Shown: in pieces, positions 9,990 to 31,939 of the stretch
Layout: every line of letters begins with the position of its first letter
Numbering within the stretch: the first letter of the stretch is position 1
Assembly (NCBI RefSeq): GCF_020866965.1
Contig: NZ_JAJATX010000002.1
Span: 112,317 to 176,316 of the forward strand
DNA from: Microvirga roseola
Lineage (GTDB): Bacteria; Pseudomonadota; Alphaproteobacteria; Rhizobiales; Beijerinckiaceae
DNA length: 64,000 nt
Direction: 5' to 3'
Made by a program: the position numbers and the translations under genes
The notes under the pieces: generated by a model
Told to the model about the DNA's origin: nothing
The model's database searches: none
Seen by the model: the letters and a program-made list of their open reading frames with translations, nothing else

Positions 9990-10018
9990 CAGAACACGGA
10001 GGCAGGGTAGGCGTTCAG

Positions 10019-14653: not shown

Positions 14654-15678
14654 CCCAACAGGCTCTGCTTCAGCCGACGCCGGAGACGTCGCTTGCCCGC
14701 CTGCGCCTGGGCTTTCTCGGTGTCGGATGGATCGGCCGCCATCGCATGCAGGCCATCCTCGGCACCGGCGCCATCGATGTCGCGGCCATCGCCGATGCTT
14801 CGCCTGAAATGGCTGCGGAGGCAAAGCAACTCGCGCCGGATGCGGAACTCGTCTCCACCCTCGACGACATTCTCGGTCTCGGCGTCGATGGCGTAGTGAT
14901 CGCAACGCCCAGCGCCATGCATGCGGAGCAATCGATCCAGGCGCTGGAACGCGGCGCCGCCGTGTTCTGCCAGAAGCCGCTGGGGCGGACGACAGCGGAA
15001 GTGCAGGCGGTGGTGGATGCAGCGCGCGCCGCGGACCGTCTGCTTGGGGTCGATCTCTCCTACCGCTTCACGGAAGGCATGCGCCGGATCCGTGAGATCA
15101 TTGCTTCCGGCGAGCTCGGGAGCATCTACGCGGTCGATCTTGTCTTCCATAATGCCTATGGGCCGGACAAGCCGTGGTTCTACGATCCTGCGCTCTCGGG
15201 CGGCGGCTGCGTCATGGATCTCGGTGTCCATCTCGTGGACTTGGCTCTCTGGACCCTTGGCCACCCGGGCATCGCGAAGGTCTCCGGCACGCTCTTCGCA
15301 GGCGGCGAACCGCTGAAGGACAGCGCCGCTCAGGTCGAGGATTACGCCGTCGCGACCGTGGGCCTGGAGACGGGAGCTGTCGTGCAGCTCGCCTGCTCCT
15401 GGCGGCTGCAGGCCGGATGCGATGCAATGATCTCCGCGGCCTTCTACGGCACTCAAGGCGGTGCGGCCCTGCGCAATGTGAACGGGTCTTTCTATGACTT
15501 CACTGCCGACCGCTACCGCGGCACTGCGCGGGAGACCCTCGCTTCGCCGCCCGACGAATGGGGTGGACGCGCGGCTGCGGACTGGGCGATGCGGCTTGCC
15601 GCAGGAGAGCGCTTCGATCCCGCAGCCGAGCGGCTGGTGGATGTGGCCCGAGTTTTGGACCGGATCTACGGCCGCTGA
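14650..15678 (+). CDS. Gfo/Idh/MocA family oxidoreductase
   Basis: 342 residues. N-terminal Rossmann fold with GFLGVGWIG at about residues 18-26. The family's EKP-type motif appears as QKP in VFCQKPLG. The substrate-domain motif DLGVHLVDLALW carries the catalytic D and H. Members oxidise or reduce inositols, glucose, keto-sugars and UDP-sugars with NAD(P). It is coupled to the upstream MDR by an ATGA overlap and ends just before a strong hairpin. The substrate cannot be fixed from sequence; an inositol dehydrogenase-like role would fit the adjacent operon. Confidence 0.88.
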   Translation: MTQQALLQPTPETSLARLRLGFLGVGWIGRHRMQAILGTGAIDVAAIADASPEMAAEAKQLAPDAELVSTLDDILGLGVDGVVIATPSAMHAEQSIQALERGAAVFCQKPLGRTTAEVQAVVDAARAADRLLGVDLSYRFTEGMRRIREIIASGELGSIYAVDLVFHNAYGPDKPWFYDPALSGGGCVMDLGVHLVDLALWTLGHPGIAKVSGTLFAGGEPLKDSAAQVEDYAVATVGLETGAVVQLACSWRLQAGCDAMISAAFYGTQGGAALRNVNGSFYDFTADRYRGTARETLASPPDEWGGRAAADWAMRLAAGERFDPAAERLVDVARVLDRIYGR

Positions 15679-15690
15679 AGGGGTGAAAGG

Positions 15691-15737
15691 CATGAGAAAG
15701 GCGGCGGGGCTACAATGGCTCCGCCGCCTTTCTCATG
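15691..15737. terminator. bidirectional hairpin terminator between convergent operons
   Basis: A perfect 17-bp inverted repeat: the left arm at 15691-15707 (catgagaaaggcggcgg) pairs fully with 15721-15737 around a 13-base loop. It lies between two converging stops (15678 on +, 15751 on -). The arms carry the AAAGG/CCTTT ends that give a short T run in either direction. Confidence 0.85.
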
Positions 15738-15750
15738 AACTGCGGGCCGC

Positions 15751-16683
15751 TCAGGCGAGGGCTTCGAGCAGCTTTCCCTGCTGGGTGGTCGCGCCGAGGC
15801 TGGCATAGCGGCGGATCATGCTGGCGCAGAACTCCGCGAACTCCTCCTTGACCTGAGGAGCGCTGGTGTGATGCGGCGCGATCCCGCGATGTTCCGGCGT
15901 GAAGCAGAAGGTCACCGTCACGTCGAAATCGGCCAGCGCCTCCATCTGCCGGTCGAACCAGTCGAGGGCGTTCGGACGGAAGCTGTCGGCCCAGGAGAGG
16001 CCCGTTCGCAAGTGCTTGACGCCGAGACGCTTCATCCAGGCGACCGCCTCGTCCAGGCGGTGATCCTCGAAGTGGAACCACTGGCACAGGCCCATCTGCG
16101 AGGCATGCTTCGCATATTCCTCAAGCGCAGGCTTCGGCGAGCCATCCTCGCGCAGCAGACCCATGTAGAAATGGCGGTAATAGGATGATCCTTCCGCCTC
16201 CCGGTGACGGGTCGTGGCGCCCCAGGCGCGGGGTAGGTCGTAGAGCGAATACCAGTGGATGCGCGGCACTTCGCCGATCAGAAGTTCAGCCGTGCGGTTC
16301 AGGCCCCAGACCTGGACTTCCTCCGCCCCGAAGGTCGAGATGCCGACCTCCGTCACCCAGATCGGCTTGTCCGTGACCGCGCGGATCTCGTTGATCTTCG
16401 CGGGCCATTCGTGGATCTGCCACAGGTTCCAGTCGAGGGGAAAGCCATGGACCGCCACCACGTCCACATGATCGAGCACGCCTTGTCCGGCGAGGTTCTG
16501 GATATAGCCGGGGTCGATGGGCGAGATGCCGCCGAGCACGCGGGTGAGGCTGGGATTCTCGGCCTTGATCGCCTGGCCTGCGGCAATCGCCATCTCGGAA
16601 AAGAGCCTCCATTCCGGATCGATCTCCGGATCCCAGTGGGACTTGTTGTTGGGCTCGTTCCAGATCATTGCGGCTTCAATCAT
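15751..16683 (-). CDS. TIM-barrel glycosidase-like protein (clan GH-A) with apparently permuted motif order
   Basis: 310 residues from the ATG at 16683, which overlaps the methyltransferase stop (ATGA). The clan GH-A acid/base motif WNEP lies at residues 8-11 (E10), although it normally follows barrel strand 4 near residue 150. The putative nucleophile is E112 in WVTEVG. Residues about 195-212 look like a normal barrel C-terminus (GLLREDGSPKPALEEY). After that come strand 1 to 3-like segments: GLCQWFHFED, VKHLRTGLSWAD and VTVTFCFTPEHRG. So strands 4-8 appear to precede strands 1-3. No signal peptide; cytoplasmic. It could trim or transfer sugars in the glycan pathway of this operon. It is the last gene. 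Confidence 0.8.
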   Translation of the reverse strand: MIEAAMIWNEPNNKSHWDPEIDPEWRLFSEMAIAAGQAIKAENPSLTRVLGGISPIDPGYIQNLAGQGVLDHVDVVAVHGFPLDWNLWQIHEWPAKINEIRAVTDKPIWVTEVGISTFGAEEVQVWGLNRTAELLIGEVPRIHWYSLYDLPRAWGATTRHREAEGSSYYRHFYMGLLREDGSPKPALEEYAKHASQMGLCQWFHFEDHRLDEAVAWMKRLGVKHLRTGLSWADSFRPNALDWFDRQMEALADFDVTVTFCFTPEHRGIAPHHTSAPQVKEEFAEFCASMIRRYASLGATTQQGKLLEALA

Positions 16684-17450
16684 GCAGTTCTCCCTTGAGC
16701 CGGATAGACGGCCTCCGCTCCAGGCGGAGCCTCGATACGACGGCAGATGTAAACCTCGGTTTCGGGGTGCTGGAGGATCTCGAACCCGGCGCTGCGGAGC
16801 ATGGCCTCCACGCAGGCGGAGTTCGGCGCCCACCAGTTCGTCGGATCGTCGGCGTAGCGATGCTCGATGAAGTGCATCTTCGGATAGCGCGGATCGTCAA
16901 AGTGCTCCGTCTCCCAGAAGGTATAATCCTTCTCGACCGGCATCGTCTCGGTCGCGCCGCGCTGCATGGACTGGAAGATGAGGAGATCCTTCGCGACGTG
17001 CTCATGGATGAGGTCGAGCGCGAGGAGGGGGTGACGCAGGTGATAGAGAACCCCCATGAAGATGACCACGTCGAACCGTTCGCCCAGCGCACCGAGGTCG
17101 TAGACCGACAGCTTGCGGAACTCGATGTCATGGCCTGTCGTCTGCGCCGCGAAACGGGCTTGGGCGAGATAGGTGTCGTCGAAATCGACGCCGAGCACGC
17201 GGCTCGCGCCGCGCTTCTTCATCTCGATGGAATAGAACCCGGCATTGCAGCCGATATCCAGCACCGTCTTGCCCGTCAGGTCCTGCGGGATCGCATCCGC
17301 GAACCGCTGCCACTTGACTGCAGGATAGTTACCGAGGAAGTGGTCGGGAGCCGTCCAGACGCCATTGAGCTCGATATTGTGAAACCACGTGCCGAGCGCT
17401 TCGGCTCGCTTTCGGATCTCCTCCGCGGATGTGGGGTCCATGGCATTCAT
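16680..17450 (-). CDS. SAM-dependent methyltransferase, CmoB-like (TIGR04290 type)
   Basis: 256 residues. The N-terminal block WFHNIELNGVWTAPDHFLG resembles the CmoB family, here in a shorter protein typical of the TIGR04290 methyltransferases found among glycan genes. SAM motif I is VLDIGCNAGFYS (about residues 63-74) and motif IV-like GVLYHLRHP follows. It probably methylates a sugar or inositol hydroxyl or carboxyl in the product of the cluster. It starts 8 bases after the nucleotidyltransferase stop and overlaps the glycosidase-like gene by ATGA. CmoB itself is a tRNA enzyme, so tRNA modification cannot be fully excluded, but the neighbours argue against it. Confidence 0.85.
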   Translation of the reverse strand: MNAMDPTSAEEIRKRAEALGTWFHNIELNGVWTAPDHFLGNYPAVKWQRFADAIPQDLTGKTVLDIGCNAGFYSIEMKKRGASRVLGVDFDDTYLAQARFAAQTTGHDIEFRKLSVYDLGALGERFDVVIFMGVLYHLRHPLLALDLIHEHVAKDLLIFQSMQRGATETMPVEKDYTFWETEHFDDPRYPKMHFIEHRYADDPTNWWAPNSACVEAMLRSAGFEILQHPETEVYICRRIEAPPGAEAVYPAQGRTA

Positions 17451-17458
17451 GGCGAAAG

Positions 17459-18271
17459 CTACTCCCTGCTCAGATCGTGAAGACCGCGCGGCATCCGGCC
17501 GGCCGGCCAGCCCAGGGCGACGCGGGCGCCCGTGAGGTTTTCATGCTGGGCGGCCTCGCTCAGAAGCCCGATGGCGGAGCGATAGCCGTGCAAGGTTCCG
17601 ACATCGACATACGACTCGCCAGCCTTGACGCCAACGGCTTCGCCGCCCTGTTCCAGATAGGCGTTCACGAGAGTGCCGAAGTACTCGTCCTCGCCGTTTC
17701 GGGCCTGCCAGAGCCGGTGCAAATCTTCGAGCACGCGACCCGGCATCTTGAAGGCGCCCCAGATCCAGTTGGACGATGCATCCTGCCGCTTCACCTGGAT
17801 CTCGCGCACATGCATCGTTTCGTCGAGCACCACCGCATCGAAATATTGCGGGTACTCGACCGGGAAGAGGAGGAAGGAGAGAACACCTTCGGGCAGTTCC
17901 GCCAAGGCTTTCTCCGGGAACCATACGGTGTCGGGGAGCCCGACGATCACGCTCTCATCCGGCGGGATCAGGGGGGCGGCCCTGAAGATCGCATCGCACA
18001 ACCCGCTCGCCTGCGGCTGAACCACATAGGCAATAGAGGCATCGCCATAGCTTGCGCCGTAATACTCCATGATGTCGGACTTGCCGGGGGAGATCACGAA
18101 GCAGATCTTGTCGGCTCCGCCATGGATCATCCGCTCGACGAGGTACTCGCTGACCGCGCAAGGTCGCTCGACGCCGTTGTCGAGGCGGCTGCCGACCGGC
18201 AGAAGCTCCTTCGAGAAGGCAAGAGGCTGGATGCGGCTTCCGATTCCGGCCGCGGGCACGATACCCCACAT
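17459..18271 (-). CDS. sugar-1-phosphate nucleotidyltransferase
   Basis: 270 residues of the NTP_transferase (RmlA/GalU-like) superfamily, which activate a sugar phosphate with an NTP. The N-terminal signature is PAAGIGSRIQPLAFSKELLPVG; the usual GTR is GSR. VGLPDTVW supplies the metal-binding aspartate region, and VDVGTLHGY near the C-terminus is typical of the family. It makes an activated sugar donor for the glycosyltransferases around it; which nucleotide and sugar is not evident. Its start is 2 bases after the upstream glycosyltransferase stop, so it is part of the six-gene minus operon. Confidence 0.88.
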   Translation of the reverse strand: MWGIVPAAGIGSRIQPLAFSKELLPVGSRLDNGVERPCAVSEYLVERMIHGGADKICFVISPGKSDIMEYYGASYGDASIAYVVQPQASGLCDAIFRAAPLIPPDESVIVGLPDTVWFPEKALAELPEGVLSFLLFPVEYPQYFDAVVLDETMHVREIQVKRQDASSNWIWGAFKMPGRVLEDLHRLWQARNGEDEYFGTLVNAYLEQGGEAVGVKAGESYVDVGTLHGYRSAIGLLSEAAQHENLTGARVALGWPAGRMPRGLHDLSRE

Positions 18272-18273
18272 GG

Positions 18274-19383
18274 TCAGGCCTCCATCATGGCTGCGGAACT
18301 GCCGTCCGGAGATGCAGGGGAGCTAGCGCTCTCGAGCAGCATCTCAAGCTCCTTCGCCCTGCACGCGGATGTGTGCTCTGCGAGCGTTCTCTCCCGGCTC
18401 GCTTTCGCGATGCGCTGCAGTTCGGCCCTGGTGAGATCGAGAGCATCCACCGCCTCCTCCGTCGTCCGGGCAATGAGGATCTCCTCTCCAGGCTCGAAGA
18501 AGCTGTCCAATCCCTCCCAGTCGTCGGATAGAAGGGGCACGCCGCAAGCCGAGGCCTCGAAGAGCCGCCCCGACGGGCACCAGCCCATTTCAGCCATGGC
18601 CTGCCGGGTAATGTTGAGCGTGAGGCGCGACGACGAGAAGAATGCCGGATGCTCGGAAGGGGGCAGGTGCTTGACGAAGTAGATGTTGGGCTGCCAGGGA
18701 AAATCCTGCGGATACTGAGCTCCGCCGATCAGGAAGCGGAGGGAAGGCCGCAAGGTCGCAGGCTCGATGAAGAGACGCTCCAGCGCCGCCTGCCGGTCCT
18801 CCGCATAGGTTCCGAGGTAGGACAGGTCGGAGGCATAGTGCTCCTGGGCCTGAACCGGACGATGCACATCCGGATCCACATGCCCGTAGAGCGGCGCGAC
18901 CCGCTGCGCGCCGAGATCCGTCTGCAGACGGTCCAATGCACCGCCGCCGGTGTAGCTCAGGACGAGGTCGAAGTCCTTGAGGCCCCGTGGCCCGATATAG
19001 GGCACGGCCTCTTTGGCCTGGAGGCGGGAGAGGGTGACGGGAGTGTCCAGATCGTAGAAAATCCGCAGCCCGCGCGCTTCATCGAGCAGCAGCTCCGTCG
19101 CTGCAAGTCCATCCGGGCAATAGGATGTCACCATGGCGGCATTCGCATCGGCGATTTCAGCTTTTGCTCTGGACTGCACGGAGGTCCACTCGTCATAGAG
19201 CACGAGATCTCCTCCAGGAAGCTCGAAGAGATCGCGGTTCATGGCGTAGTAGGGCACATCCTTCTCGAAGAAGACCACCCTATGCCCCTGCCGGGCGAGG
19301 GCACGGCACAATCCCCGCCAGAGCGTTGCATGGCCGTTGCCCCAGGACGACGAGATGGTGAGGCCGAACACGACGATCTTCAT
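18274..19383 (-). CDS. CgeB-like glycosyltransferase (GT-B fold)
   Basis: 369 residues from the ATG at 19383; a longer upstream frame runs through the phosphatase gene and is rejected. Typical start VVFGLTISSSWGNGHA, then YDLDTPVTL mid-protein and the C-terminal donor-site block GRLFEASACGVPLLSD. The family is named after the Bacillus spore-crust protein CgeB. It is one of four related copies in the window and is closest to the gene at 27013, which shares SSSWGNGHAT and the DVPWYA/DVPYYA block. The ATGA overlap with the upstream phosphatase couples translation. Acceptor and sugar are unknown. Confidence 0.88.
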   Translation of the reverse strand: MKIVVFGLTISSSWGNGHATLWRGLCRALARQGHRVVFFEKDVPYYAMNRDLFELPGGDLVLYDEWTSVQSRAKAEIADANAAMVTSYCPDGLAATELLLDEARGLRIFYDLDTPVTLSRLQAKEAVPYIGPRGLKDFDLVLSYTGGGALDRLQTDLGAQRVAPLYGHVDPDVHRPVQAQEHYASDLSYLGTYAEDRQAALERLFIEPATLRPSLRFLIGGAQYPQDFPWQPNIYFVKHLPPSEHPAFFSSSRLTLNITRQAMAEMGWCPSGRLFEASACGVPLLSDDWEGLDSFFEPGEEILIARTTEEAVDALDLTRAELQRIAKASRERTLAEHTSACRAKELEMLLESASSPASPDGSSAAMMEA

Positions 19384-19979
19384 GCGGCGACCACCTCGTT
19401 CATGCGGAGAACCTTGGAGCCCCACTCGCCGACGGCAAGGGTGCTGATGGAGGCAGGCTCGACCTCGATGCGCGAACAAGCGTCGATGGGGAGTCCCAAA
19501 TGATAGAGCAGGGCAGCCTTGATTACGTCCCCATGGCTGACGAGGACGATCCTCCTTCCCGGATGGAGGGCGCGAAGTTCCTCTATCGCTCCGACGATTC
19601 GTATCTGCGCCTCCAGCATCGTCTCGCCTCCGGGAGGCCGGCTGACGCTGCGCGCGTTGTTCCACGATCTCCAGCGGGGGTCGTCTGCAAGGGCTTCGAA
19701 GTTTTTGCCGGTCCAGGAGCCGAATTCGATCTCCATGATGGCTTCGCAGGCTTCAGGGGTTAGCCCGACGCGCTCGGCAATTGGCTCAGCCGTCTCGCGG
19801 GCGCGCTCGAGCGGGCTGGTTCGGATGCAGGCGACGTCCTCGCGGGCAAGCCTCTCGGCCAGGCGCTGCGCCTGAGACCGCCCGAGGGCGCCCAGCGTCA
19901 CTCCTGGCATCCTGCCGCACAATACCGTCCCCACCCGGTCATGGGCCGCATGACGCACGAGAAGGAACGTGGTTGTCAT
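19380..19979 (-). CDS. histidine phosphatase superfamily protein (phosphoglycerate mutase-like)
   Basis: 199 residues. The catalytic motif is LVRHAA (R9, H10) with the RHA variant of RHG; EIEFGSW supplies the acidic residue, and VSHGDVIKA near residue 155 the second histidine. It is cytoplasmic. Family members dephosphorylate small phospho-compounds such as alpha-ribazole phosphate or sugar phosphates. It lies 18 bases after the inositol-3-phosphate synthase gene, and no inositol monophosphatase gene is near, so it may release free myo-inositol or dephosphorylate a glycosylated intermediate. That role is inferred from position only. Confidence 0.85.
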   Translation of the reverse strand: MTTTFLLVRHAAHDRVGTVLCGRMPGVTLGALGRSQAQRLAERLAREDVACIRTSPLERARETAEPIAERVGLTPEACEAIMEIEFGSWTGKNFEALADDPRWRSWNNARSVSRPPGGETMLEAQIRIVGAIEELRALHPGRRIVLVSHGDVIKAALLYHLGLPIDACSRIEVEPASISTLAVGEWGSKVLRMNEVVAA

Positions 19980-19997
19980 GCGCGTGCCTCCCCGGTC

Positions 19998-21080
19998 TTA
20001 TTCATCGTCGCCGTTGACGAAACGGATGGTCCTCTCGCGAGCCTCGTTGTCGGTGAACTGCTGCGGCGGCGACTTCATGAAATAGCTGGACGGGCCTGTA
20101 AGCGCGCCGCCGATCTTGCGGTCCATGGCCAGCTTCGCGCATCGGACGGCATCGATGACGATACCGGCGGAGTTGGGCGAGTCCCACACTTCCAGCTTCA
20201 GCTCCACATTGAGCGGAACGCCGCCGAAGGCTGTGCCTTCCATGCGGATATAGGCCCATTTGCGGTCTGTGAGCCACGGCACATGATCGCTCGGGCCCAC
20301 ATGGATGTCGCTGGCGGGGAGGGGGATGTCGAGCTGGCTCGATACGGCCTGAGTCTTGGAGATCTTCTTCGATTCCAAGCGCTCCCGCTCCAGCATGTTC
20401 TGAAAATCGGTATTGCCGCCGAAATTGAGCTGATAGGTGCGGTCGAGCCGCACGCCGCGCTCGCGGAAGAGGTTCGCGAGCATGCGGTGGACGATGGTGG
20501 CGCCGACCTGGCTCTTGATGTCGTCGCCGACGATGGGCAGCCCCCGCTCCTCGAAGCGCTTGCGCCATTCGGGGTTGGAGGCGATGAACACGGGGATGCA
20601 GTTCACGAAGGCGCAGCCTGCCTGGAGCGCCCGCTCCGCATACCATTCGGTCGCCTTCTGAGAGCCCACGGGCAGGTAGGAGACGAGAACGTCCGTCCGC
20701 GACTGCTTCAGGATTTCGGTGACCTCTGCCTCGTCTACCTGGGATTCCTCGATCTCGTCCCGCAGATACTTGCCGAGGCCGTCAAGGGTCTTGCCGCGAT
20801 GGACGATGATGCCGCTCTCAGGCACGGAGGCGAAACGCTGCGTGTTGTTGGGGCTGGCGAAAATGGCCTCGGAGACGTCCCGGCCGACCTTCGAAGCGTT
20901 CACATCGAAAGCGGAAGAAATCTCGACGTCGCCGATGTGGTAGCCGCCGAGTTCGACATTCATCAGCCCGGGAATGGGCTCATTGCCTTTCGCGTCCTTA
21001 TAATAGGAGAGACCCTGTACGAAGGACGAGGCGCAATTGCCGACGCCCACGATTCCGACGCGGACCTTTCTCGAACTCAT
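19998..21080 (-). CDS. ino1: inositol-3-phosphate synthase
   Basis: 360 residues from the ATG at 21080, with AAGGAG seven bases upstream; an in-frame upstream ATG at 21122 lacks one. It converts glucose-6-phosphate to 1D-myo-inositol 3-phosphate using NAD. The N-terminal NAD-binding motif is VGVGNCASS. The catalytic/dimerisation domain includes [12 protein letters not shown] and the lysine-rich [10 protein letters not shown]. The length matches the short actinobacterial/archaeal type rather than the 500-residue eukaryotic type. First gene of the minus operon, with a consensus EcfG-type promoter about 100 bases upstream, it commits carbon to an inositol product. Confidence 0.95.
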
Positions 21081-21186
21081 AACGGATCTCCTTGTGCGGC
21101 CGCATGGAGCCTCGCCACTCAAGGGCTAATCCGGAAGGCGAACTAGCACCTTCCGGCCCGGCAACAATTCTCCAAGCTTGGCCGTC

Positions 21187-21212
21187 AACGTCCGAATGGC
21201 TCCGGTTGTTCC
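21187..21212 (-). promoter_or_regulatory. EcfG-type (general stress response) promoter for the ino1 operon
   Basis: On the minus strand GGAAC (21212-21208), a 17-base spacer, then CGTT (21190-21187). This matches the alphaproteobacterial EcfG sigma consensus GGAAC-N16/17-CGTT exactly. Transcription would start near 21180, about 100 bases before ino1. Confidence 0.75.
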
Positions 21213-21277
21213 GCTCCTGACCCCTCCCTTTGAGACTCTTGTCTTCCGGGACCGGCGCCCAACCTACCCGAGATGCA

Positions 21278-21302
21278 GGAACAAAGAAGAAGCTGCCGCG
21301 TT
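21278..21302 (+). promoter_or_regulatory. EcfG-type (general stress response) promoter for the epimerase-glycosyltransferase operon
   Basis: GGAAC at 21278-21282, a 16-base spacer, then CGTT at 21299-21302: an exact consensus match on the plus strand. Transcription would start near 21309, about 110 bases before the GTG at 21418. Its mirror-image partner at 21187-21212 makes chance unlikely. Confidence 0.75.
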
Positions 21303-21417
21303 GGCATGGCGTAAGGCCAAGCTTGGAGGGGCAGCCTTCATGGTGCCCGCCATCTCACTTGGTCTGTCCTGGCACTTTCCTCGGCATTGAGCCGCAAAAC
21401 TGATCCGGAGGCAACAC

Positions 21418-22530
21418 GTGGCGGATACGATCCTCATCACCGGCGGCGCGGGCTTCATTGGCCGCTATGTTGCGCGCGCCTGTCTGGAACGCGGGCATCG
21501 TGTTCGCGTGCTCGACAGCCTGATCGAGCAGGTTCATGGGGAGAAGACGCAGGCCGATGGACTGGATCCCGAAGTCGAGGTCGTCGTTGGTGACGTGCGC
21601 GACGAGACCGCGATCCTGCGGGCCCTGAAAGGGGTCACCAAGGTTGTCCACCTTGCGGCCGAGGTCGGCGTCGGCCAGAGCATGTATGCCGTCGACCGTT
21701 ATATCTCCGTAAACGATTACGGCACGGCTGTCCTCTTCCAGCAGCTCATCGACAACCCGGTGAAACGCGTCGTCGTGGCTTCCTCCATGAGCATCTACGG
21801 AGAGGGCCTTTATCGTGATGCGGAGGGGCGGATCATGGAGGACGTGATTCGCACGCCGCGCACGAAGGAGAGCGACCCTTGGGATCCGCTGGATTCGAAG
21901 GGCCGTCCGCTTGTTCCCGTGCCAACGCCCGAATGGAAAAAGCCTGCGTTGGCGTCCGTCTATGCCCTGTCGAAGTATGTCCAGGAACGGCTCACCCTGA
22001 CCCTCTGTCCGGCTTACGGCATGGAGGGCGTGGCGCTCCGGCTTTGGAACGCGTACGGGCCGGGGCAGGCCCTGTCCAATCCCTATACCGGCGTTCTCGC
22101 CATCTTCGCCTCGCGGCTCCACAACGGCCAGCCGCCGATGATCTTCGAGGATGGTCAGCAGCGGCGCGACTTCGTGCATGTGGAGGACGTGGCGCAGGCT
22201 TTCGTTCTGGCGCTGGAGCATGAGAAAGCGGCGGGCGGCATCTACAATGTCGGCAGCGGCCAGGACCGAACGGTTTCCGAAGTGGCGGAGCTCCTGGCCC
22301 AGGCCATGAACAAATCCATTGCGCCGGAGATCGCCGGCAAGGCGCGCATCGGCGACATTCGCCACTGCATCGCCGACATCACCAGGATCCAGCAGGAATT
22401 GGGCTACAAGGCGAAGAAGGACTTCTCGGAAGGTCTTGCGGAGCTCGCCGAGTGGGTCGCCCAGCAGGAGGCGAAGGACCTCGTGCAGGAAGCCCGCAAG
22501 GAACTCGAAGCAAGAGGCCTTGTGGCATGA
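21418..22530 (+). CDS. NAD-dependent sugar-nucleotide epimerase/dehydratase (dTDP-L-rhamnose 4-epimerase-like)
   Basis: 370 residues with a GTG start preceded by GGAGG six bases upstream. Extended SDR: the NAD motif TGGAGFIG is near residue 8, the serine region is SSMSIYGEG, and the catalytic YALSK supplies Y and K. The segment NPYTGVLAIFASRL followed by EDGQQRRDFVH is typical of dTDP-L-rhamnose or UDP-glucose 4-epimerase branches. No rhamnose-synthesis genes are in the window, so the substrate is open. First gene of the plus operon, with an EcfG-type promoter upstream and an ATGA overlap with the next gene. Confidence 0.87.
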   Translation: MADTILITGGAGFIGRYVARACLERGHRVRVLDSLIEQVHGEKTQADGLDPEVEVVVGDVRDETAILRALKGVTKVVHLAAEVGVGQSMYAVDRYISVNDYGTAVLFQQLIDNPVKRVVVASSMSIYGEGLYRDAEGRIMEDVIRTPRTKESDPWDPLDSKGRPLVPVPTPEWKKPALASVYALSKYVQERLTLTLCPAYGMEGVALRLWNAYGPGQALSNPYTGVLAIFASRLHNGQPPMIFEDGQQRRDFVHVEDVAQAFVLALEHEKAAGGIYNVGSGQDRTVSEVAELLAQAMNKSIAPEIAGKARIGDIRHCIADITRIQQELGYKAKKDFSEGLAELAEWVAQQEAKDLVQEARKELEARGLVA

Positions 22531-23642
22531 CAGAGTCGCGTCCCCAGAGTAGCGCACCCGCCGTTCTCCGCCGCAAGCCCATCCTCATCACCGGTGGAGC
22601 CGGCTTCATCGGCTCCAATCTCGCCGACCGTTTTGCGAGCGAGGGCCACGATGTTTTGGTCTACGACGCGCTGGCGCGCCCGGGCGTCGACCGGAATCTC
22701 GAGTGGCTGAAAAAGCGGCATCCGGGCAAGGTCTCGGCGGTCATCGGCGATATCCGCGACGAGACGGCGGTTGCGGATGCAGCCGGCGAGGCGCAGGCCG
22801 TTTTCCACATGGCCGCGCAGGTTGCGGTCACGACGAGTCTCGCCGATCCGCGCGAAGATTTCGAGATCAACATTCGCGGCACCCTGAATCTCCTCGATGC
22901 GCTGCGCCGGCGTAGCGAGCCTATACCCTTGATCTTCGCCTCCACGAACAAGGTCTATGGCGACCTCGCGGATGTGGAGCTCGATAAAACGAACGATGCC
23001 TATGTCCCGCGGGACCCGGCGATCCGCGATAAAGGCATTGGAGAGGCACGCCCGCTCGACTTCCACACGCCCTATGGCTGCTCGAAGGGCGCTGCCGACC
23101 AGTACGTCCTCGATTATGCCCGCTCGTTTGACATCCCGACCTGCGTGATGCGGATGAGCTGCATCTATGGCCAGCGGCAGATGGGAACAGAAGACCAGGG
23201 CTGGGTCGCTCATTTCCTGATCCGTGCGCTCGAAGGCGAGCCGATCACGATCTACGGAGACGGCTGTCAGGTTCGCGATATTCTCGATATTTCCGATGCT
23301 GTTTCAGCCTATGCCTCTGCCTGGAAGCATATCGGCTCCGCGAAGGGGCGCGCCTTCAATCTCGGTGGCGGGCCTTCGAACGCGATTAGCCTGAAGCAGC
23401 TCATCGTTCACATCGAAGATGTGATCGGACGCCCAGTGGAGGCGATCTATTCCGACTGGCGTGCCGGAGATCAGCGCTATTACGTCTCCGATACCCGGCT
23501 CGCGGCCGGTGAACTCGGGCTCAAGCCCCCCATACCTTGGCGCAAAGGCATCGCGAATCTTGCGCGCTGGCTGCAGGAGGAGCGAGTGTCCCTGCCAGCG
23601 ATGCCTGACATCCGTCTGCAGGCCGTAGGGGCGCTGTCATGA
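22527..23642 (+). CDS. NAD-dependent epimerase (CDP-paratose 2-epimerase/tyvelose epimerase-like)
   Basis: 371 residues from the ATG at 22527, which overlaps the previous stop (ATGA). Extended SDR with TGGAGFIGSN, the serine region STNKVYGD and the catalytic YGCSK. The segments ASTNKVYGDL, RMSCIYGQRQMGTEDQGWV and the insert PRDPAIRDKGIGE resemble CDP-paratose 2-epimerases (RfbE). Those act on C2 of a CDP-sugar. No CDP-sugar synthesis genes are present here, so I take only the fold and an epimerase role as secure. It supplies a sugar donor to the downstream glycosyltransferases. Confidence 0.87.
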   Translation: MTESRPQSSAPAVLRRKPILITGGAGFIGSNLADRFASEGHDVLVYDALARPGVDRNLEWLKKRHPGKVSAVIGDIRDETAVADAAGEAQAVFHMAAQVAVTTSLADPREDFEINIRGTLNLLDALRRRSEPIPLIFASTNKVYGDLADVELDKTNDAYVPRDPAIRDKGIGEARPLDFHTPYGCSKGAADQYVLDYARSFDIPTCVMRMSCIYGQRQMGTEDQGWVAHFLIRALEGEPITIYGDGCQVRDILDISDAVSAYASAWKHIGSAKGRAFNLGGGPSNAISLKQLIVHIEDVIGRPVEAIYSDWRAGDQRYYVSDTRLAAGELGLKPPIPWRKGIANLARWLQEERVSLPAMPDIRLQAVGALS

Positions 23643-23695
23643 GCGCCGCGGACCTATGCATCGAAGTCTCGGAGGCCGCATGTCGGCATCCGTAA
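23639..23695 (+). other. possible 18-codon leader ORF at the epimerase-GT4 junction
   Basis: An ATG overlapping the epimerase stop (ATGA, 23639) opens an 18-residue frame ending at TAA 23693-23695, inside the start of the GT4 gene. Other ATGA overlaps in this operon open real genes. It may couple translation to the next gene, or be chance. Confidence 0.25.
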
Positions 23696-24816
23696 CCGGA
23701 AATCGAAAACTCCGCGTGCTCATGACTGCCGATGCAGTGGGCGGCGTTTGGCAGTATGCGCTTGATCTGGCGGAGGGACTGCGCCTCCAGGGCGTGGAGA
23801 CGATCCTCGCCGTGCTCGGGCCCACTCCGTCCGAGGACCAGCGGGAGACCGCACAGAAGGCCGGTATCGAGCTGCTTTTGACCAGCCTGCCGCTAGACTG
23901 GACGGCCGATGCTCCGCATGAGGTCGAGGAAGCCGGTCGCGTCATTGCGCGCATCGCTCGTGATCCCGCACCGGACATTGTTCATCTCAATAATCCGGCC
24001 CTTGCGGCAAGCGCCGCATTCGAGGTTCCCGTCGTTGCCGTCTGCCACTCCTGTGTCGCTACTTGGTGGCAGGCAGTTCGCGGCGGTCCTCTGCCGGATG
24101 AATTCGTCTGGCGCACGGATCTCCTGCGGCGGGGGTATGAGAGGGCCGACAGGCTGCTTGCTCCGACCGCCGCCTTCGCGCGCCTGACCGCTCAAAGCTA
24201 TGATTTGAAGGAGATACCGGTCGTCGTTCGGAATGGCCGTCGTATTTCGCAGATCGAGCGACGGGCTTCGAGCCAACCGTTCGCCTTCACCGCCGGCCGC
24301 CTGTGGGACGAGGGCAAGAACCTGGCCTGTCTCGACCGCGCAGCCTCGCGCATCGCAATTCCTGTGCTCGCCGCCGGGCCTCTCCAGGGCCCCAATCGTG
24401 TGTCCGCTGCGGCCCATCATGTCAGGGCGCTCGGCCGTTTGAGCGATGCGGAGGTTGCCCGGTATCTTGCCGAAGGGCCGGTTTTCGTCTCGACCGCCCG
24501 CTATGAGCCCTTCGGTCTCGCCGTCCTCGAAGCGGCCCAGGCCGGCTGCGCTCTCATCTTGTCCGACATTCCCACTTTGCGGGAGCTGTGGGAGGACGCC
24601 GCCGTCTTCGTGCAGCCTGATGATGACCAGGCACTGGCTGGTGAGATCCAGCGCCTTGCGCAGGAGTCCGAGGCGCGGCGCGCTCTGGGAGAGGCCGCGG
24701 CCTTGCGGGCCCGCACATACAGCGTGGAGGCCATGAGCGCCGGGGTGCTCTCCGCCTATCGCGCTCTGCTTCCATCGAGAACGGACAGATCCCCGTTGGA
24801 GGGGGCGGCTGCATGA
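23680..24816 (+). CDS. glycosyltransferase family 4-type (GT-B)
   Basis: 378 residues from the ATG at 23680, with GGAGG at 23671-23675; an upstream ATG at 23656 has no ribosome site. The N-terminal block MTADAVGGVWQYALDLA is the glycine-rich acceptor loop of GT4 enzymes. The C-terminal EPFGLAVLEAAQAGCALILSD is the E-x7-E donor-binding motif of retaining GT4 transferases. There is no signal peptide; it is cytoplasmic or peripheral. It is the only non-CgeB glycosyltransferase in the operon and may add the first sugar. It overlaps the next gene by ATGA at 24813. Confidence 0.9.
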   Translation: MSASVTGNRKLRVLMTADAVGGVWQYALDLAEGLRLQGVETILAVLGPTPSEDQRETAQKAGIELLLTSLPLDWTADAPHEVEEAGRVIARIARDPAPDIVHLNNPALAASAAFEVPVVAVCHSCVATWWQAVRGGPLPDEFVWRTDLLRRGYERADRLLAPTAAFARLTAQSYDLKEIPVVVRNGRRISQIERRASSQPFAFTAGRLWDEGKNLACLDRAASRIAIPVLAAGPLQGPNRVSAAAHHVRALGRLSDAEVARYLAEGPVFVSTARYEPFGLAVLEAAQAGCALILSDIPTLRELWEDAAVFVQPDDDQALAGEIQRLAQESEARRALGEAAALRARTYSVEAMSAGVLSAYRALLPSRTDRSPLEGAAA

Positions 24817-25925
24817 AGTTCGTCTATTTCACCCATTCCCTTGCCTCCTGCTGGAACCACGGCAACGCCCATTTCCTTCGCGGCGTGCTGCGCGACCTCA
24901 TCCGTCGCGGCCATGAGGTTGTCGCCTATGAGCCGGCGGGCTCCTGGAGCCTGGGGAACCTTCTGGGCGATCACGGCAAGGCAGGGCTCAAAGCCTATCA
25001 AAGCCTCTATCCGGAGCTCAGCTCCCGTTTCTTCGATCCGCAGATCAATCTCGACGAAGCCCTGGGCGACTCCGATGTGGTCATCGTGCACGAATGGAAC
25101 GAACCATGGCTCGTTGCCGCCATCGGCAAGATGCGCAGGAGGGGCGCGAATTTCACGCTCCTCTTCCACGACACCCATCACCGTGCGGTCAGCGATCCCA
25201 ATGCCATCCGCCAGTTCGACCTCGACGGCTATGACGGCGTTCTTGCCTTCGGCGAGACCCTGGCCGAGGTCTATCGCCGCTGGGGCTGGAGCAGCCGTGT
25301 CCATGTCTGGCACGAGGCTGCCGATACGAGGCTCTTCCATCCGCCTGCCGAGGAGATAGAGCGTAAAGGACTCGTCTGGATCGGCAACTGGGGCGACGGC
25401 GAGCGCAATGCGGAACTCGAAAGCTTCCTCTTCCGCCCTGCACGGACGGTCGGACTGCCGCTGGAAATCTATGGCGTCCGGTATCCGGATCATGCGCTCG
25501 ACATGCTCTCCCGCTATGGGGTGACCTATCGTGGCTGGCTCCCTAACGCCCGCGCGCCGGAAGTCTTTGCGCGGCATCTTGCAACCGTGCACGTGCCGCG
25601 CCGGTTCTATGTGGACATGCTGCCAGGCATCCCGACGATCCGCGTCTTCGAGGCCTTGGCTTGCGGCATTCCCCTCGTCTCGGCACCCTGGCACGACTCG
25701 GAGGGCTTGTTCAGCCCCGGAACCGACTATCTGGTCGCCAAGGACGAGAGTGAGATGGAGCGTCATCTCACGGCTATCCGCCAGGATCCGGATCTGCGAC
25801 GTTCACTCGTCGAGAGCGGCCTTGCCGCCATCCGCAGCCGCCATTCCTGCGCCCACCGGGTCGATCAGCTCCTCGCCATTCTCGATACGTATCGCGCTGA
25901 CGCGCCACTGGAGATATCTGCATGA
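24813..25925 (+). CDS. CgeB-like glycosyltransferase
   Basis: 370 residues. It starts VYFTHSLASCWNHGNAHFLRG, a variant of the SSSWGNGHAT block seen in two paralogues. The C-terminal donor block is RVFEALACGIPLVSAPW, then an SPGTDYLVAKD segment typical of glycosyltransferase group 1 C-termini. It contains the HDTHHRAV motif after the first domain, replacing the YDIDTPVT motif of the 18274 and 27013 copies, which suggests a different donor or acceptor. Coupled by ATGA overlaps on both sides. Confidence 0.88.
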   Translation: MKFVYFTHSLASCWNHGNAHFLRGVLRDLIRRGHEVVAYEPAGSWSLGNLLGDHGKAGLKAYQSLYPELSSRFFDPQINLDEALGDSDVVIVHEWNEPWLVAAIGKMRRRGANFTLLFHDTHHRAVSDPNAIRQFDLDGYDGVLAFGETLAEVYRRWGWSSRVHVWHEAADTRLFHPPAEEIERKGLVWIGNWGDGERNAELESFLFRPARTVGLPLEIYGVRYPDHALDMLSRYGVTYRGWLPNARAPEVFARHLATVHVPRRFYVDMLPGIPTIRVFEALACGIPLVSAPWHDSEGLFSPGTDYLVAKDESEMERHLTAIRQDPDLRRSLVESGLAAIRSRHSCAHRVDQLLAILDTYRADAPLEISA

Positions 25926-27016
25926 AGATCGCGTTCTACGGTTCCAGTCTTCTGTCGTCCTACTGGAACGGCGCCGCCACCTATTACCGGGGCATGCTCA
26001 GCGATCTCGCGCGCCGCGGCTATGACATCACCTTCTATGAGCCCGATGCCTTCGACCGCCAGCAGCATCGGGACATCGAGCCGCCGGAATGGGCGGAAGT
26101 GAAGGTCTACCCGGCGACGGAGGCCGCCATGCGCAGCGTGGTCGCCGAGGCTGCGAAGGCCGACGTGGTGGTGAAAGCCTCGGGTGTCGGCGTCTTCGAC
26201 AAGGAATTGCTGGAAGGCGTGGTCGCCTCTTCCCGTCCCGACGCGATCCGCATCTTCTGGGATGTGGATGCGCCTGCGACCCTCGCCGAACTGCGCGAGA
26301 GCCCGGATCATCCCCTTCACCGCACGATGCCGGCCCTCGATCTCGTGCTGACCTATGGCGGCGGCCCGCCGGTCATCGAGGCCTATGAGAGATTCGGCGC
26401 ACGCCGCTGCATCCCAATCTACAATGCCCTCGATCCTTCGACCCATCACCCGGTGCCGGCTGACGAGCGCTTCAGGGCGGACCTGTCCTTCCTGGGCAAC
26501 CGTCTGCCGGATCGCGAAGCCCGCGTGGAGCAGTTCTTCCTGGAGCCTGCCGCACGCCTGCCAGACCGGAGCTTCCTCATCGGCGGAAACGGCTGGGAGA
26601 CCAAGGGCATGCCGTCGAACGTGCGCCATATCGGCCACGTCTATACGCGCGATCACAACGCCTTCAATACCAGCCCGCTCGCCGTACTCAACATTGCCCG
26701 CGATTCCATGGCCACCACCGGATTCTCGCCGGCGACGCGTGTGTTCGAGGCTGCGGGTGCAGGCGCATGCCTCATCACCGACGCCTGGATCGGCCTCGAA
26801 CTCTTCCTCAGGGAAGGCGAGGAGGTTCTGGTCGCGCGTGACGGCAAGGACGTCGCGGACCATGTGGAGGCGTTGACGCCCGAGCGCGCCAAAGCCATCG
26901 GCGATGCAGCGCGGGCGCGGATCATGGCCGAGCACACCTACGAAAGGCGCGGCGCGGAAGTCGATGCGATCCTGCGGAAGGAAGCGTCCCTGAAGCGCGA
27001 AAGGAGCGTCGCGTGA
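25922..27016 (+). CDS. CgeB-like glycosyltransferase
   Basis: 364 residues, starting IAFYGSSLLSSYWNGAATYYRG. It has FWDVDAPATLAEL, equivalent to the YDxDTPVTL motif of its paralogues, and LTYGGGPPVIEAYERFG. The C-terminal donor block is TRVFEAAGAGACLITDAW, followed by LREGEEVLVARD. Both ends overlap neighbours (ATGA at 25922, GTGA at 27013). It is one of three consecutive family members, probably derived by tandem duplication with strong divergence, each likely adding one residue to a short chain. Confidence 0.88.
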   Translation: MKIAFYGSSLLSSYWNGAATYYRGMLSDLARRGYDITFYEPDAFDRQQHRDIEPPEWAEVKVYPATEAAMRSVVAEAAKADVVVKASGVGVFDKELLEGVVASSRPDAIRIFWDVDAPATLAELRESPDHPLHRTMPALDLVLTYGGGPPVIEAYERFGARRCIPIYNALDPSTHHPVPADERFRADLSFLGNRLPDREARVEQFFLEPAARLPDRSFLIGGNGWETKGMPSNVRHIGHVYTRDHNAFNTSPLAVLNIARDSMATTGFSPATRVFEAAGAGACLITDAWIGLELFLREGEEVLVARDGKDVADHVEALTPERAKAIGDAARARIMAEHTYERRGAEVDAILRKEASLKRERSVA

Positions 27017-28119
27017 GTTCCATGCGCGTCGTCGTCCTCGGTCTCAGCCTGTCCTCATCCTGGGGCAATGGCCATGCAACCACCTTCCGGGCTCTGCTGA
27101 AGGCGTTTGCTGCGCGCGGGCATGAGATCGTCTTCCTTGAGCGTGACGTGCCCTGGTACGCCGCTCATCGGGACATGACCGACCCGGAGTTCTGCCGCCT
27201 CGAATTCTATTCGAGTGTGGAGGATCTGAAACGGTACCGGGACACGATTGCCTGCGCGGATGCCGTGATCCTAGGGTCCTATGTGCCTGACGGCGTCGCC
27301 GTGGGCCGCTGGGTTCAGCGCAACGCCAGGGGTGTAGTCGCATTCTACGACATCGACACACCGGTGACGCTCGCAAAGCTCGAGAGAGGCGACTACGAGT
27401 ATCTCTCCCCCGGCCTCATTCCCGATTACGATATCTACTTCTCATTTACCGGCGGCCCCACCCTTGAGCTTCTGATGGAGCGCTACGGCTCGCCCTCGGC
27501 ACGGGCCCTCTATTGCTCCGTCGATCCAGAGGCCTATCCCGTGCTCGATGGTGAGAAGCGGTGGGACCTCAGCTATCTCGGCACCTACTCTCCCGATCGG
27601 CAGCCGGTATTGGAGCGACTCCTGATCGAGTCTGCAAGGCGCGCGCCGCATCTCCGCTTCGTCGTGGCGGGCCCTCAATATCCAGCCGGCATCGAGTGGC
27701 CTGCCAATGTGGAGCGCATCGATCACGTGCCGCCGAGCGCTCACCCGACCTTCTATGCGGAGAGTCGCTTTACGCTCAACGTGACGCGCGCCGACATGGT
27801 TCAGGCCGGCTTCAGCCCCAGCGTACGTCTCTTCGAGGCCGGAGCCTGCGGAACGCCGATCATCTCTGACATCTGGAGCGGGATCGAGACCATCCTGACC
27901 CCTGACTGCGAGATCATTCTCGCCCAGGATGCTGACGATGTGCTCGCGGTGATCGATCAGTGGCCGGAGGATCGCCGCAAGGCTCTGGGACAGGCGGGCA
28001 GAAAGCGAATTCTGGGCGAGCACACTGCCGCTCACCGCGCAATGACCCTGGAGCGCGATCTCACTGAGGCCCAGGGCCGGCAGCGCAGGGACCGTGCGCA
28101 TGCCATGGCGAGTGCATGA
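27013..28119 (+). CDS. CgeB-like glycosyltransferase
   Basis: 368 residues. The start is taken as the GTG at 27013 (GTGA overlap, AAGGAG six bases upstream); an ATG at 27022 is an alternative. It starts VVVLGLSLSSSWGNGHAT, has YDIDTPVTLAKL and FSFTGGPTLELL, and a C-terminal donor block VRLFEAGACGTPIISD. It is the closest relative of the minus-operon copy at 18274, sharing motif by motif across the whole length. That implies a duplication across the divergent promoter. Last gene of the tightly coupled plus operon. Confidence 0.88.
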   Translation: MSSMRVVVLGLSLSSSWGNGHATTFRALLKAFAARGHEIVFLERDVPWYAAHRDMTDPEFCRLEFYSSVEDLKRYRDTIACADAVILGSYVPDGVAVGRWVQRNARGVVAFYDIDTPVTLAKLERGDYEYLSPGLIPDYDIYFSFTGGPTLELLMERYGSPSARALYCSVDPEAYPVLDGEKRWDLSYLGTYSPDRQPVLERLLIESARRAPHLRFVVAGPQYPAGIEWPANVERIDHVPPSAHPTFYAESRFTLNVTRADMVQAGFSPSVRLFEAGACGTPIISDIWSGIETILTPDCEIILAQDADDVLAVIDQWPEDRRKALGQAGRKRILGEHTAAHRAMTLERDLTEAQGRQRRDRAHAMASA

Positions 28120-28146
28120 GACTATGAATAGATTCTAAGCCGACGT

Positions 28147-28171
28147 TGAACCAATGCCAAGCTTAGACGTT
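28147..28171 (+). promoter_or_regulatory. EcfG-like promoter, one mismatch, upstream of the UXS-like gene
   Basis: TGAAC at 28147-28151, a 16-base spacer, CGTT at 28168-28171. The single mismatch is the first G of GGAAC. It would start transcription about 55 bases before 28232, giving this gene its own stress promoter. Confidence 0.4.
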
Positions 28172-28231
28172 GGACGAGAGAAAGTTGTAACCAGTAGCCG
28201 CTGTCGGTGATCCGCTAAGGAGATCGTCTTC

Positions 28232-29263
28232 ATGAAGAATGGCAAGAGCAAGCATGTCCTTGTTGCAGGCGGCGCCGGATTTCTCGGGTCCCATTTGTGT
28301 GATGCTCTTCTCAGCGAAGGCGCTCACGTCATCGCCGTCGACAATCTCCTGACAGGGCGCAGGCAGAACCTCCGTCATCTGGAACGAGAGCCTCGGTTCG
28401 ATCTGATCGACGCCGACATCATCAAGCCTCTGCCGGCGCGCTTGCGCTCGAAGCGTCTGAAGATCGACGAGGTCTACAATCTCGCCTGCGCGGCTTCTCC
28501 GCCGCATTATCAGGCCGATCCCGAGCATACGATGCTCACCAGCGTCGTCGGAACGCACAACCTGCTCACCCTCACCGAGGCGACGGGTGCACGCTTCTTC
28601 CTGGCTTCGACCAGTGAAATCTATGGCGATCCGGAAGTTCATCCACAAACCGAGAGCTACTGGGGCAATGTTAATCCGACCGGTCCGCGCGCCTGCTACG
28701 ATGAAGGCAAGAGAGCGGCGGAAACGCTGACTTTCGACTTCGAGCGCTCGGGGCGCGCCGACGTGCGCATCGCGCGCATATTCAACACCTACGGGCCGCG
28801 CATGCGCGCGGACGATGGCCGCGTCGTCTCCAATGTGATCTGCCAGGCCTTGGCAGGAGACGACATCACCATCTACGGCGACGGCAGCCAGACCCGCTCC
28901 TTCTGCTACGTGTCGGATCTGATCGACGGCTTCCAGCGTCTCATGGCCTACGAGGGTCCCTTCCCAGGAGCCGTCAACCTTGGCAATCCGGTGGAGCTCA
29001 CCGTGGGAGACCTCGCCAGCCGGGTTCTCGCCATGACAGGGTCCTCTTCCCGTGTCGTCCGGCGTCCTCTGCCGGTCGACGATCCCCGCCGGAGGCGTCC
29101 CGACATCACCCGGGCCAAGCAGCTGCTTGGCTGGAATCCGCGCACGCCGCTCGATGCCGGCCTCAAGGCCACGATCGCTTGGTTCTCGGACGAGCGGGCC
29201 AACGACACCAAGGCGGCTCGGGCTTTGACCCTCGAGAACGTCCTGTCTGCAGGACCAGTCTGA
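28232..29263 (+). CDS. UDP-glucuronate decarboxylase-like NAD-dependent epimerase/dehydratase
   Basis: 343 residues, with AAGGAG nine bases before the ATG. Extended SDR with AGGAGFLGSH near the N-terminus, the block NLACAASPPHYQ, STSEIYGDPEVHPQ, and the catalytic YDEGKRAAE, all hallmarks of UDP-xylose synthase (UXS). That enzyme converts UDP-glucuronate to UDP-xylose with internal NAD recycling. It would provide a pentose donor for the adjacent glycosyltransferases. It lies 112 bases after the plus operon, with a possible EcfG-like site of its own. No UDP-glucose dehydrogenase is in the window, so the glucuronate precursor must come from elsewhere. Confidence 0.88.
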   Translation: MKNGKSKHVLVAGGAGFLGSHLCDALLSEGAHVIAVDNLLTGRRQNLRHLEREPRFDLIDADIIKPLPARLRSKRLKIDEVYNLACAASPPHYQADPEHTMLTSVVGTHNLLTLTEATGARFFLASTSEIYGDPEVHPQTESYWGNVNPTGPRACYDEGKRAAETLTFDFERSGRADVRIARIFNTYGPRMRADDGRVVSNVICQALAGDDITIYGDGSQTRSFCYVSDLIDGFQRLMAYEGPFPGAVNLGNPVELTVGDLASRVLAMTGSSSRVVRRPLPVDDPRRRRPDITRAKQLLGWNPRTPLDAGLKATIAWFSDERANDTKAARALTLENVLSAGPV

Positions 29264-29395
29264 TCTGCAGATCACGGTCCGGGACGGTATCCGTTCCGCC
29301 TTGAGCAGCAGACGCTGAACGAGCCTGCAAACGGCCTTCCGGATCCGTTCGGAGGGCTTGCTGTTGTCTCCGGCGAACAGACCGGAGGCTCCTTG

Positions 29396-30223: not shown

Positions 30224-30270
30224 ACAATACCTGTCGCCGAATGAAGTCCTGAGCCGCAGCCTTCCGGCAA

Positions 30271-30295
30271 TGAACTGGAAAGGCGTCTTTCCGTT
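30271..30295 (+). promoter_or_regulatory. EcfG-like promoter, one mismatch, upstream of the MscS gene
   Basis: TGAAC at 30271-30275, a 16-base spacer, CGTT at 30292-30295. It has the same single mismatch as the site at 28147. The predicted start is near 30302, about 44 bases before the ATG at 30346. Confidence 0.35.
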
Positions 30296-30345
30296 ACCCC
30301 AGGACCGGCTGGAGCGGGAAGAATGCAGGGATACGGGATCAGAGG

Positions 30346-31920: not shown

Positions 31921-31939
31921 TTGCTGCCGAACAACGCCG

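Follow-up and report, generated by a model that had tools for sequence, protein, structure and literature searches.

Glycosidases of clan GH-A share a (beta/alpha)8 barrel in which the acid/base glutamate follows strand 4, in a WNEP-type motif, and the nucleophile glutamate lies at strand 7; in the usual barrel, three strands precede the WNEP strand. PslG, a GH39-like enzyme of the Pseudomonas Psl pathway, has this ordinary strand order. We analysed a 64,000-nucleotide stretch of the Microvirga roseola genome (contig NZ_JAJATX010000002.1, positions 112,317 to 176,316, referred to as the window), in which two divergent operons encode a glycosidase that has the WNEPN strand and the block following it in common with PslG, but is permuted and has a cytosolic start without a signal sequence. 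Encoded with it are an inositol-3-phosphate synthase (Ino1), sugar-nucleotide enzymes, glycosyltransferases and a methyltransferase of TIGR04290, a hypothetical equivalog family without assigned function, whose curated cut-off of 300 bits the window protein exceeds (389.6 bits). TIGRFAMs reportedly describes a conserved 'rhizo-twelve' cassette around another family, TIGR04295, which other genomes encode within this cluster and which has no match in the window genome; neither TIGR04290 nor 'rhizo-twelve' was found named in the literature searched. The mycothiol pathway, which involves Ino1 and MshA, offers a further comparison, as the best NCBIfam match of the window Ino1 is the actinobacterial type (TIGR03450). 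However, this match of 548.5 bits falls below the cut-off of 638, and the GT4 glycosyltransferase scores 27.1 bits against an MshA cut-off of 462.5; with neither equivalog cut-off reached, mycothiol biosynthesis was rejected. We propose, with about an even chance of being right, that the region 13697-29263 encodes a cytosolic pathway, induced by the EcfG/PhyR/NepR stress response, to a small methylated glycoside containing xylose, to which the form of the cluster with ino1 adds myo-inositol.

The glycosidase gene (15751..16683, minus strand) encodes a protein of 310 residues. The first-pass annotation had called it a TIM-barrel glycosidase; the family holds, given a match to PF11790 (Glyco_hydro_cc, 22.9 bits, cut-off 21) and eight modelled strands, but the ordinary form of the barrel does not. 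Judged from alignments and a structure model, the protein is a circularly permuted, clan-GH-A-like barrel that begins at the WNEPN strand (strand 4) and ends with strands 1-3, in place of the 1-to-8 order. In a two-sequence BLAST comparison with a 679-residue fusion protein of R. etli (NXC12_RS21390), whose N-terminal glycoside hydrolase (GH) domain is in the ordinary order and is fused to SDR2, residues 7-184 of the glycosidase aligned to residues 123-298 (E = 1.1e-25) and residues 196-293 to residues 15-114 (E = 6.2e-9). Since the window enzyme aligns to this protein in two swapped blocks, we consider the permutation clearly proven at the level of sequence. Profile alignment to PslG placed residues 3-185 on PslG 132-320 (whole-sequence E = 1.5e-6) and residues 200-295 on PslG 25-130, the second block being weak when taken alone (i-Evalue 13).

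A structure model was built from 45 alignment rows, comprising the window protein and 44 of the 79 sequences found by the pattern described below, from which two short rows and near-identical rows had been dropped. The model (pLDDT 83.2, pTM 0.84) contains eight strands, the first of which (residues 2-8) bears WNEPN, and has low-confidence loops at residues 11-15 and 155-168. E10 of WNEPN and E112 of a W-V-S/T-E-V-G motif are invariant across the 45 rows, so that the predicted protein appears to have both the catalytic glutamates and the barrel of clan GH-A. That this is a normal GH39/GH5-like enzyme whose odd start is an artefact of annotation or assembly seems to us very improbable. Glyco_hydro_cc does cover only the middle of the open reading frame, with a score just above the cut-off, and the matches listed from a Foldseek search of the model against the PDB were all generic TIM barrels, which is what a sequential aligner is expected to give for a permutant, yet is no proof of permutation. 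The start M-I-E-A-A-M-I-W-N-E-P-N, however, was found at 79 places in 80 related loci, and the 77 complete copies, which come from many genera, have this start and the same end; an artefact would also leave unexplained the swapped blocks in the alignment to the unpermuted relative. The loci were chosen by similarity to the methyltransferase: of at least 570 relatives in species genomes, the 80 best were kept, with flanks limited to 10 kb, and the first eleven are from Microvirga. Of the two incomplete copies, one (L105) lies at a contig end and the other (L095:10600-11684, Devosia aurantiaca) is split into a piece of 102 residues and a second frame, representing either a broken gene or a sequence error. 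No signal sequence was seen within the shared start. A phage origin of the glycosidase was considered and dropped, as there was no match in the phage collection. The literature listings on permuted glycosidases name cases in GH13 and GH70 and, within those listings, none in clan GH-A, which does not prove that none exists.

Comparison across genomes revealed two forms of the cluster. In form I, ino1 is present and the glycosidase is permuted; in form II, which occurs in R. etli, Tistrella mobilis, Xanthomonas sacchari and others, the GH domain is unpermuted and there is no ino1 nearby. The form-II clusters, including that with the R. etli fusion, share with the window their epimerases, glycosyltransferases, UDP-xylose synthase and TIGR04290 methyltransferase; what differs is the GH domain, which is unpermuted and either joined to SDR2 or, in two Microvirga genomes, a protein of its own, and the lack of ino1 nearby. 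Among 61 relatives and 241 genomes of the class, the permuted gene was found in 25, 24 of which have ino1, and the unpermuted gene in 8, none of which has it. A fresh test on new genomes of a phylum sample (n = 14) gave ino1 in 12/12 genomes with the permuted gene, at most 3.6 kb away in each, and in 0/2 with the unpermuted gene alone. Taken together, ino1 is present in 36/37 genomes of the permuted type vs 0/10 of the unpermuted type, in counts that carry no correction for kinship. Glycosidase type was read beside the methyltransferase, and genome-wide only in the fresh set. One genome was excluded because its glycosidase lies beyond a contig end (G040, locus L008); G086 was scored as unpermuted on a partial match and belongs to one genus with G196 and G277; G634 holds both forms and was scored as permuted; G022 was scored as permuted from a second locus; and G193, which is in both samples and fits the pattern, was counted once.

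Both forms are present in Microvirga. In a tree of the third PF13524 glycosyltransferase (39 rows, of which L068, on a very long branch, is truncated or wrong), Microvirga forms I and II group together (100/99). The methyltransferase tree (41 rows), on the other hand, separates the two, placing Microvirga form II in a form-II clade (98/93) that also holds R. etli and S. meliloti. Because the two trees group the Microvirga forms differently, we conclude that the glycan operon stayed in place while the other module was replaced. We tentatively suggest, while regarding it as somewhat less than an even bet, that the permutant arose or was kept together with a supply of inositol and acts inside the cell as a biosynthetic (trans)glycosidase on the bond between sugar and inositol in a glycoside induced by stress, and that two exchangeable versions (inositol with the permuted enzyme, and no ino1 with the unpermuted enzyme) are combined with one constant glycan operon. 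Clusters that otherwise match but differ in having the permuted or the unpermuted enzyme provide a natural experiment on the rearrangement of a fold and a change of substrate.

The region between the operons points to the EcfG/RpoE2 general stress regulon of the Alphaproteobacteria, recognised here by its promoter motif. Published accounts give this motif as GGAAC-N16-CGTT in R. etli (PMC3892343) and GAAC-N16,17-C/GGTT in M. extorquens (PMC4814048). In the window, the 295-nt gap between ino1 and SDR1 contains two GGAAC-N16/17-CGTT motifs, each facing outward to its own operon, so that both operons start with one: GGAAC-N17-CGTT toward ino1 (21187..21212, minus strand) and GGAAC-N16-CGTT toward the glycan operon (21278..21302, plus strand). 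At the genome-wide density of the motif, the chance of one match per strand in a single gap of this length is about 1e-5. The strict motif stands before ino1 in 23/74 loci, compared to 1/74 for the reversed control and a mean of 0.05 for shuffled sequence, and is found in the same place in 11/11 named Microvirga loci. It precedes SDR1 in 7/51 loci, a strict match toward the glycan operon is present in 5/11 named Microvirga loci, and the motif was not found before any of five internal genes (SDR2, GT4, methyltransferase, glycosidase and phosphatase). Relaxed matches, for which no control was run, occur before ino1 or SDR1 in S. meliloti and R. etli. These motifs suggest that EcfG may control both operons, and the genome has four NepR matches. 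The cluster of Tistrella mobilis has Ku, LigD and topoisomerase IB as neighbours, and as Ku and topoisomerase IB are on the EcfG list of S. melonis (PMC6599016), these neighbours fit a stress function. The topoisomerase IB gene of T. mobilis lies within the glycan operon itself (L126:22651-23727), between the UDP-xylose synthase and methyltransferase genes. In the text passages considered from PMC8877191, PMC6599016, PMC4814048, PMC3616915, PMC2912261, PMC10315480 and PMC3892343, the cluster is not named, and PMC6180224 contained none of the terms looked for.

Several observations weigh against a single, stress-induced pathway that includes inositol. The strict motif occurs 106 times genome-wide vs 73 for the reversed control (1.45 times), and a single match therefore means little; 51/74 loci lack it before ino1; the relaxed pattern is poorly controlled (33/72 vs 10/72 reversed); and the strict motif is also found in 5/52 stretches upstream of the second glycosyltransferase, all within the coding sequence of a single related group, where the matches look like chance. 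Genome G187, as the sole exception, holds the permuted gene but lacks ino1, and in S. meliloti and G022 a methyltransferase of form II accompanies the permuted gene and ino1. In the class sample, 7/11 genomes with the methyltransferase lack ino1, and 19/23 genomes with ino1 lack the methyltransferase. The glycan operon is also found without ino1 in R. etli, T. mobilis and Xanthomonas sacchari (28-37 kb fetched); because of these operons, and since only 4/11 of the class genomes with the methyltransferase have ino1, Ino1 is an optional module and no core step.

Such figures would fit another explanation, in which Ino1 and the phosphatase provide myo-inositol as a free osmolyte or for making phosphatidylinositol, and have a stress promoter and a neighbourhood in common with glycan genes that belong to a separate pathway. 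The genome has four PF01066 genes (CDP-alcohol phosphotransferases), of which PgsA and PssA score above cut-off and two are unassigned, one being weakly like archaetidylinositol phosphate synthase (57.3 bits, cut-off 180); this enzyme, encoded elsewhere in the genome, may allow for phosphatidylinositol as a product and is another point against the glycoside pathway. We nevertheless regard mere neighbourhood as unlikely, as the type of glycosidase tracks ino1 closely across genomes and, within the genus, ino1 is present in 20/22 genomes with the methyltransferase and in 0/15 without it. The idea of one pathway, as put forward in the first-pass annotation, is thus borne out in part: the operons occur together in many genomes and are linked within the genus, but with ino1 optional the idea holds for one form only.

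The twelve genes reported at 15751..28119 were recovered by open reading frame, Pfam and NCBIfam scans, in two divergent operons as originally described. Spacing within both is tight, with 4-nt overlaps and gaps of 2-18 nt, and this spacing indicates two operons. Likely starts were corrected for the glycosidase (16683), the first PF13524 glycosyltransferase (19383), Ino1 (21080) and the second epimerase (22527). Reading from its promoter, the minus operon encodes Ino1 (19998..21080; PF01658, 123.6 bits), the histidine phosphatase (19380..19979; PF00300, E = 1.4e-47), a first PF13524 glycosyltransferase (18274..19383; E = 1.6e-39), an RmlA-like sugar-1-phosphate nucleotidyltransferase (17459..18271; PF00483), the form-I TIGR04290 S-adenosylmethionine methyltransferase (16680..17450) and the glycosidase. 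The plus operon encodes the nucleotide-sugar epimerase SDR1 (21418..22530; PF01370, E = 6.5e-51), SDR2 (22527..23642), which resembles CDP-tyvelose 2-epimerase (E = 7.4e-83 and 1.9e-77 to two entries), the GT4 family glycosyltransferase (23656..24816; PF13439/PF00534) and the second, third and fourth PF13524 glycosyltransferases (24813..25925, 25922..27016 and 27013..28119; Pfam). This makes the five glycosyltransferases previously counted, one GT4 and four PF13524, of which one PF13524 copy is on the minus strand; where the label 'CgeB-like' had been used, the scans give the family PF13524.

The biosynthetic unit is wider than these twelve genes and extends over 13697-29263, the original list having missed three. 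A UDP-glucuronate decarboxylase (UDP-xylose synthase) gene (28232..29263, plus strand) starts 112 nt downstream of 28119; its closest solved relatives are UDP-glucuronate decarboxylases, among them human-type entries (E = 1.6e-102), and since the next family reaches only 1.3e-38, UDP-xylose is probably made. On the other side, a zinc alcohol dehydrogenase gene (13697..14653) and a Gfo/Idh/MocA oxidoreductase gene (14650..15678), both on the plus strand, form a pair (13697-15678) that recurs with the cluster in 23/80 and 22/80 loci, respectively. Their best matches are weak, to a scyllo-inosose-dehydrogenase-like family for the former (NF041097, 89.1 bits, cut-off 450) and an inositol-2-dehydrogenase-like family for the latter (TIGR04380, 103 bits, cut-off 355). 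In S. meliloti and R. etli, too, the alcohol dehydrogenase gene lies beside the cluster. The ino1 gene is present as a single copy in the genome, and the histidine phosphatase, whose gene adjoins ino1 in most loci, is a candidate inositol-phosphate phosphatase. The best solved relatives of the nucleotidyltransferase are glucose-1-phosphate thymidylyltransferases (E = 1.5e-7). A role as inositol cytidylyltransferase, making CDP-inositol, was rejected, as all 15 solved relatives (E <=0.01) are glucose-1-phosphate thymidylyltransferases or uridylyltransferases and none is an inositol cytidylyltransferase.

From these gene families, their conservation and the link to ino1, we infer a product, enzyme activities and an order of steps, as well as inositol in the product and a site at which the glycosidase acts. 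The EcfG/PhyR/NepR general stress response would switch the cluster on. Ino1 and the phosphatase would convert glucose-6-phosphate to myo-inositol (or its phosphate), UDP-glucuronate would be converted to UDP-xylose, and the epimerases and the nucleotidyltransferase would produce further donors. The plus operon, with two epimerases, the GT4 enzyme, three PF13524 glycosyltransferases and the UDP-xylose synthase, would thereby supply sugar donors and assemble the glycan, and the minus operon would be a second, exchangeable module. The five glycosyltransferases may assemble a short chain, the one in the minus operon adding a further sugar with the help of the nucleotidyltransferase; the TIGR04290 enzyme may methylate this chain, and the permuted GH-A-type enzyme, acting in the cytosol, could edit or form the glycosidic bond at the inositol-bearing end. 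As had been suggested at first, the product may be an inositol glycoside in soluble form or else a glycolipid.

The enzymes could instead make side chains of a lipopolysaccharide, capsule or exopolysaccharide, with the polymerase and exporter encoded elsewhere and the glycosidase trimming lipid-linked intermediates in the manner of PslG-like enzymes in the Psl pathway. Surface glycans typically involve NDP-sugar epimerases, PslG is by sequence the best solved relative of the glycosidase, and a gene for polysaccharide pyruvyl transferase, along with further sugar genes, adjoins the cluster in some genomes. We consider a surface glycan improbable, though not negligibly so. As the first-pass annotation had stated, no priming transferase, polymerase or exporter was found by Pfam and NCBIfam scans among the twelve genes, so that the hallmarks of a Wzx/Wzy or ABC-type exopolysaccharide system are absent from the cluster, no genome-wide search having been made; a flippase is likewise absent. 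None of these functions was recognised among the 40 most frequent groups of neighbours, which were judged by eye from their sequences and include many spurious frames. The shared start of the glycosidase without a signal sequence also counts against a surface glycan. Simple hydropathy gave no convincing membrane segment in the twelve proteins, the GT4 enzyme having one window above 1.6.

A cytosolic, polymethylated oligosaccharide without inositol would follow a logic like that of mycobacterial methylglucose polysaccharides, inositol being a cofactor-like acceptor that is later freed by the glycosidase. The methyltransferase is present in both forms, no exporter is encoded in the cluster, the glycosidase is apparently cytosolic and ino1 occurs in one form only, all of which would fit; but one methyltransferase does not reveal the number of methyl groups, and we think such a product quite unlikely.

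Whatever the product, the cluster is widely conserved. Across the 80 loci, genes of the minus operon were found at 80 (methyltransferase), 79 (glycosidase), 74 (Ino1), 73 (phosphatase), 47 (nucleotidyltransferase) and 46 loci (first PF13524 glycosyltransferase), and those of the plus operon at 54-58 (four glycosyltransferases), 49 (SDR1) and 48 (SDR2), so that the conserved synteny proposed as a check on the annotation is indeed seen in many genomes. The methyltransferase is present in 11/241 genomes of the class and 16/397 of the phylum in even samples, the source genome included, and a match to the glycosidase was found in 147 plasmid records. The pSymB replicon of S. meliloti 1021 bears the cluster, with the nucleotidyltransferase and first PF13524 genes absent from the 28 kb read. 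A class of soil and plant bacteria that includes S. meliloti and R. etli thus appears to have a so far unstudied stress pathway to a small glycoside, which its location on pSymB makes accessible to gene deletion and mass spectrometry.

Individual loci depart from this arrangement. In Methylobacterium nonmethylotrophicum (L080), the phosphatase and methyltransferase are the only cluster genes in the stretch fetched. Genes for an F420-hydrogenase-beta-like protein and a polysaccharide pyruvyl transferase are convergent with the glycosidase gene in Sinorhizobium (L121:16876-19351), and a similar pair is found in some Devosia and Mesorhizobium loci. The TIGR04295 B12-binding radical SAM protein is encoded inside the cluster in 11/80 loci, among them one of Azospirillum (L061:4460-5761, 712 bits), and may represent a C-methylation step that is missing in Microvirga; it was rejected as a core step, being above cut-off in only 1/61 related genomes. 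In the window, genes for a possible ion channel, an MscS channel and a BrkB membrane protein (29393-33127) lie downstream, which puts genes of osmotic or envelope stress beside a stress-type cluster. A PrkA-YeaH-SpoVR stress operon (8043-12864) lies just upstream, and accompanies the cluster in 9/80 loci, all of them from Microvirga as judged by their rank among the 80.

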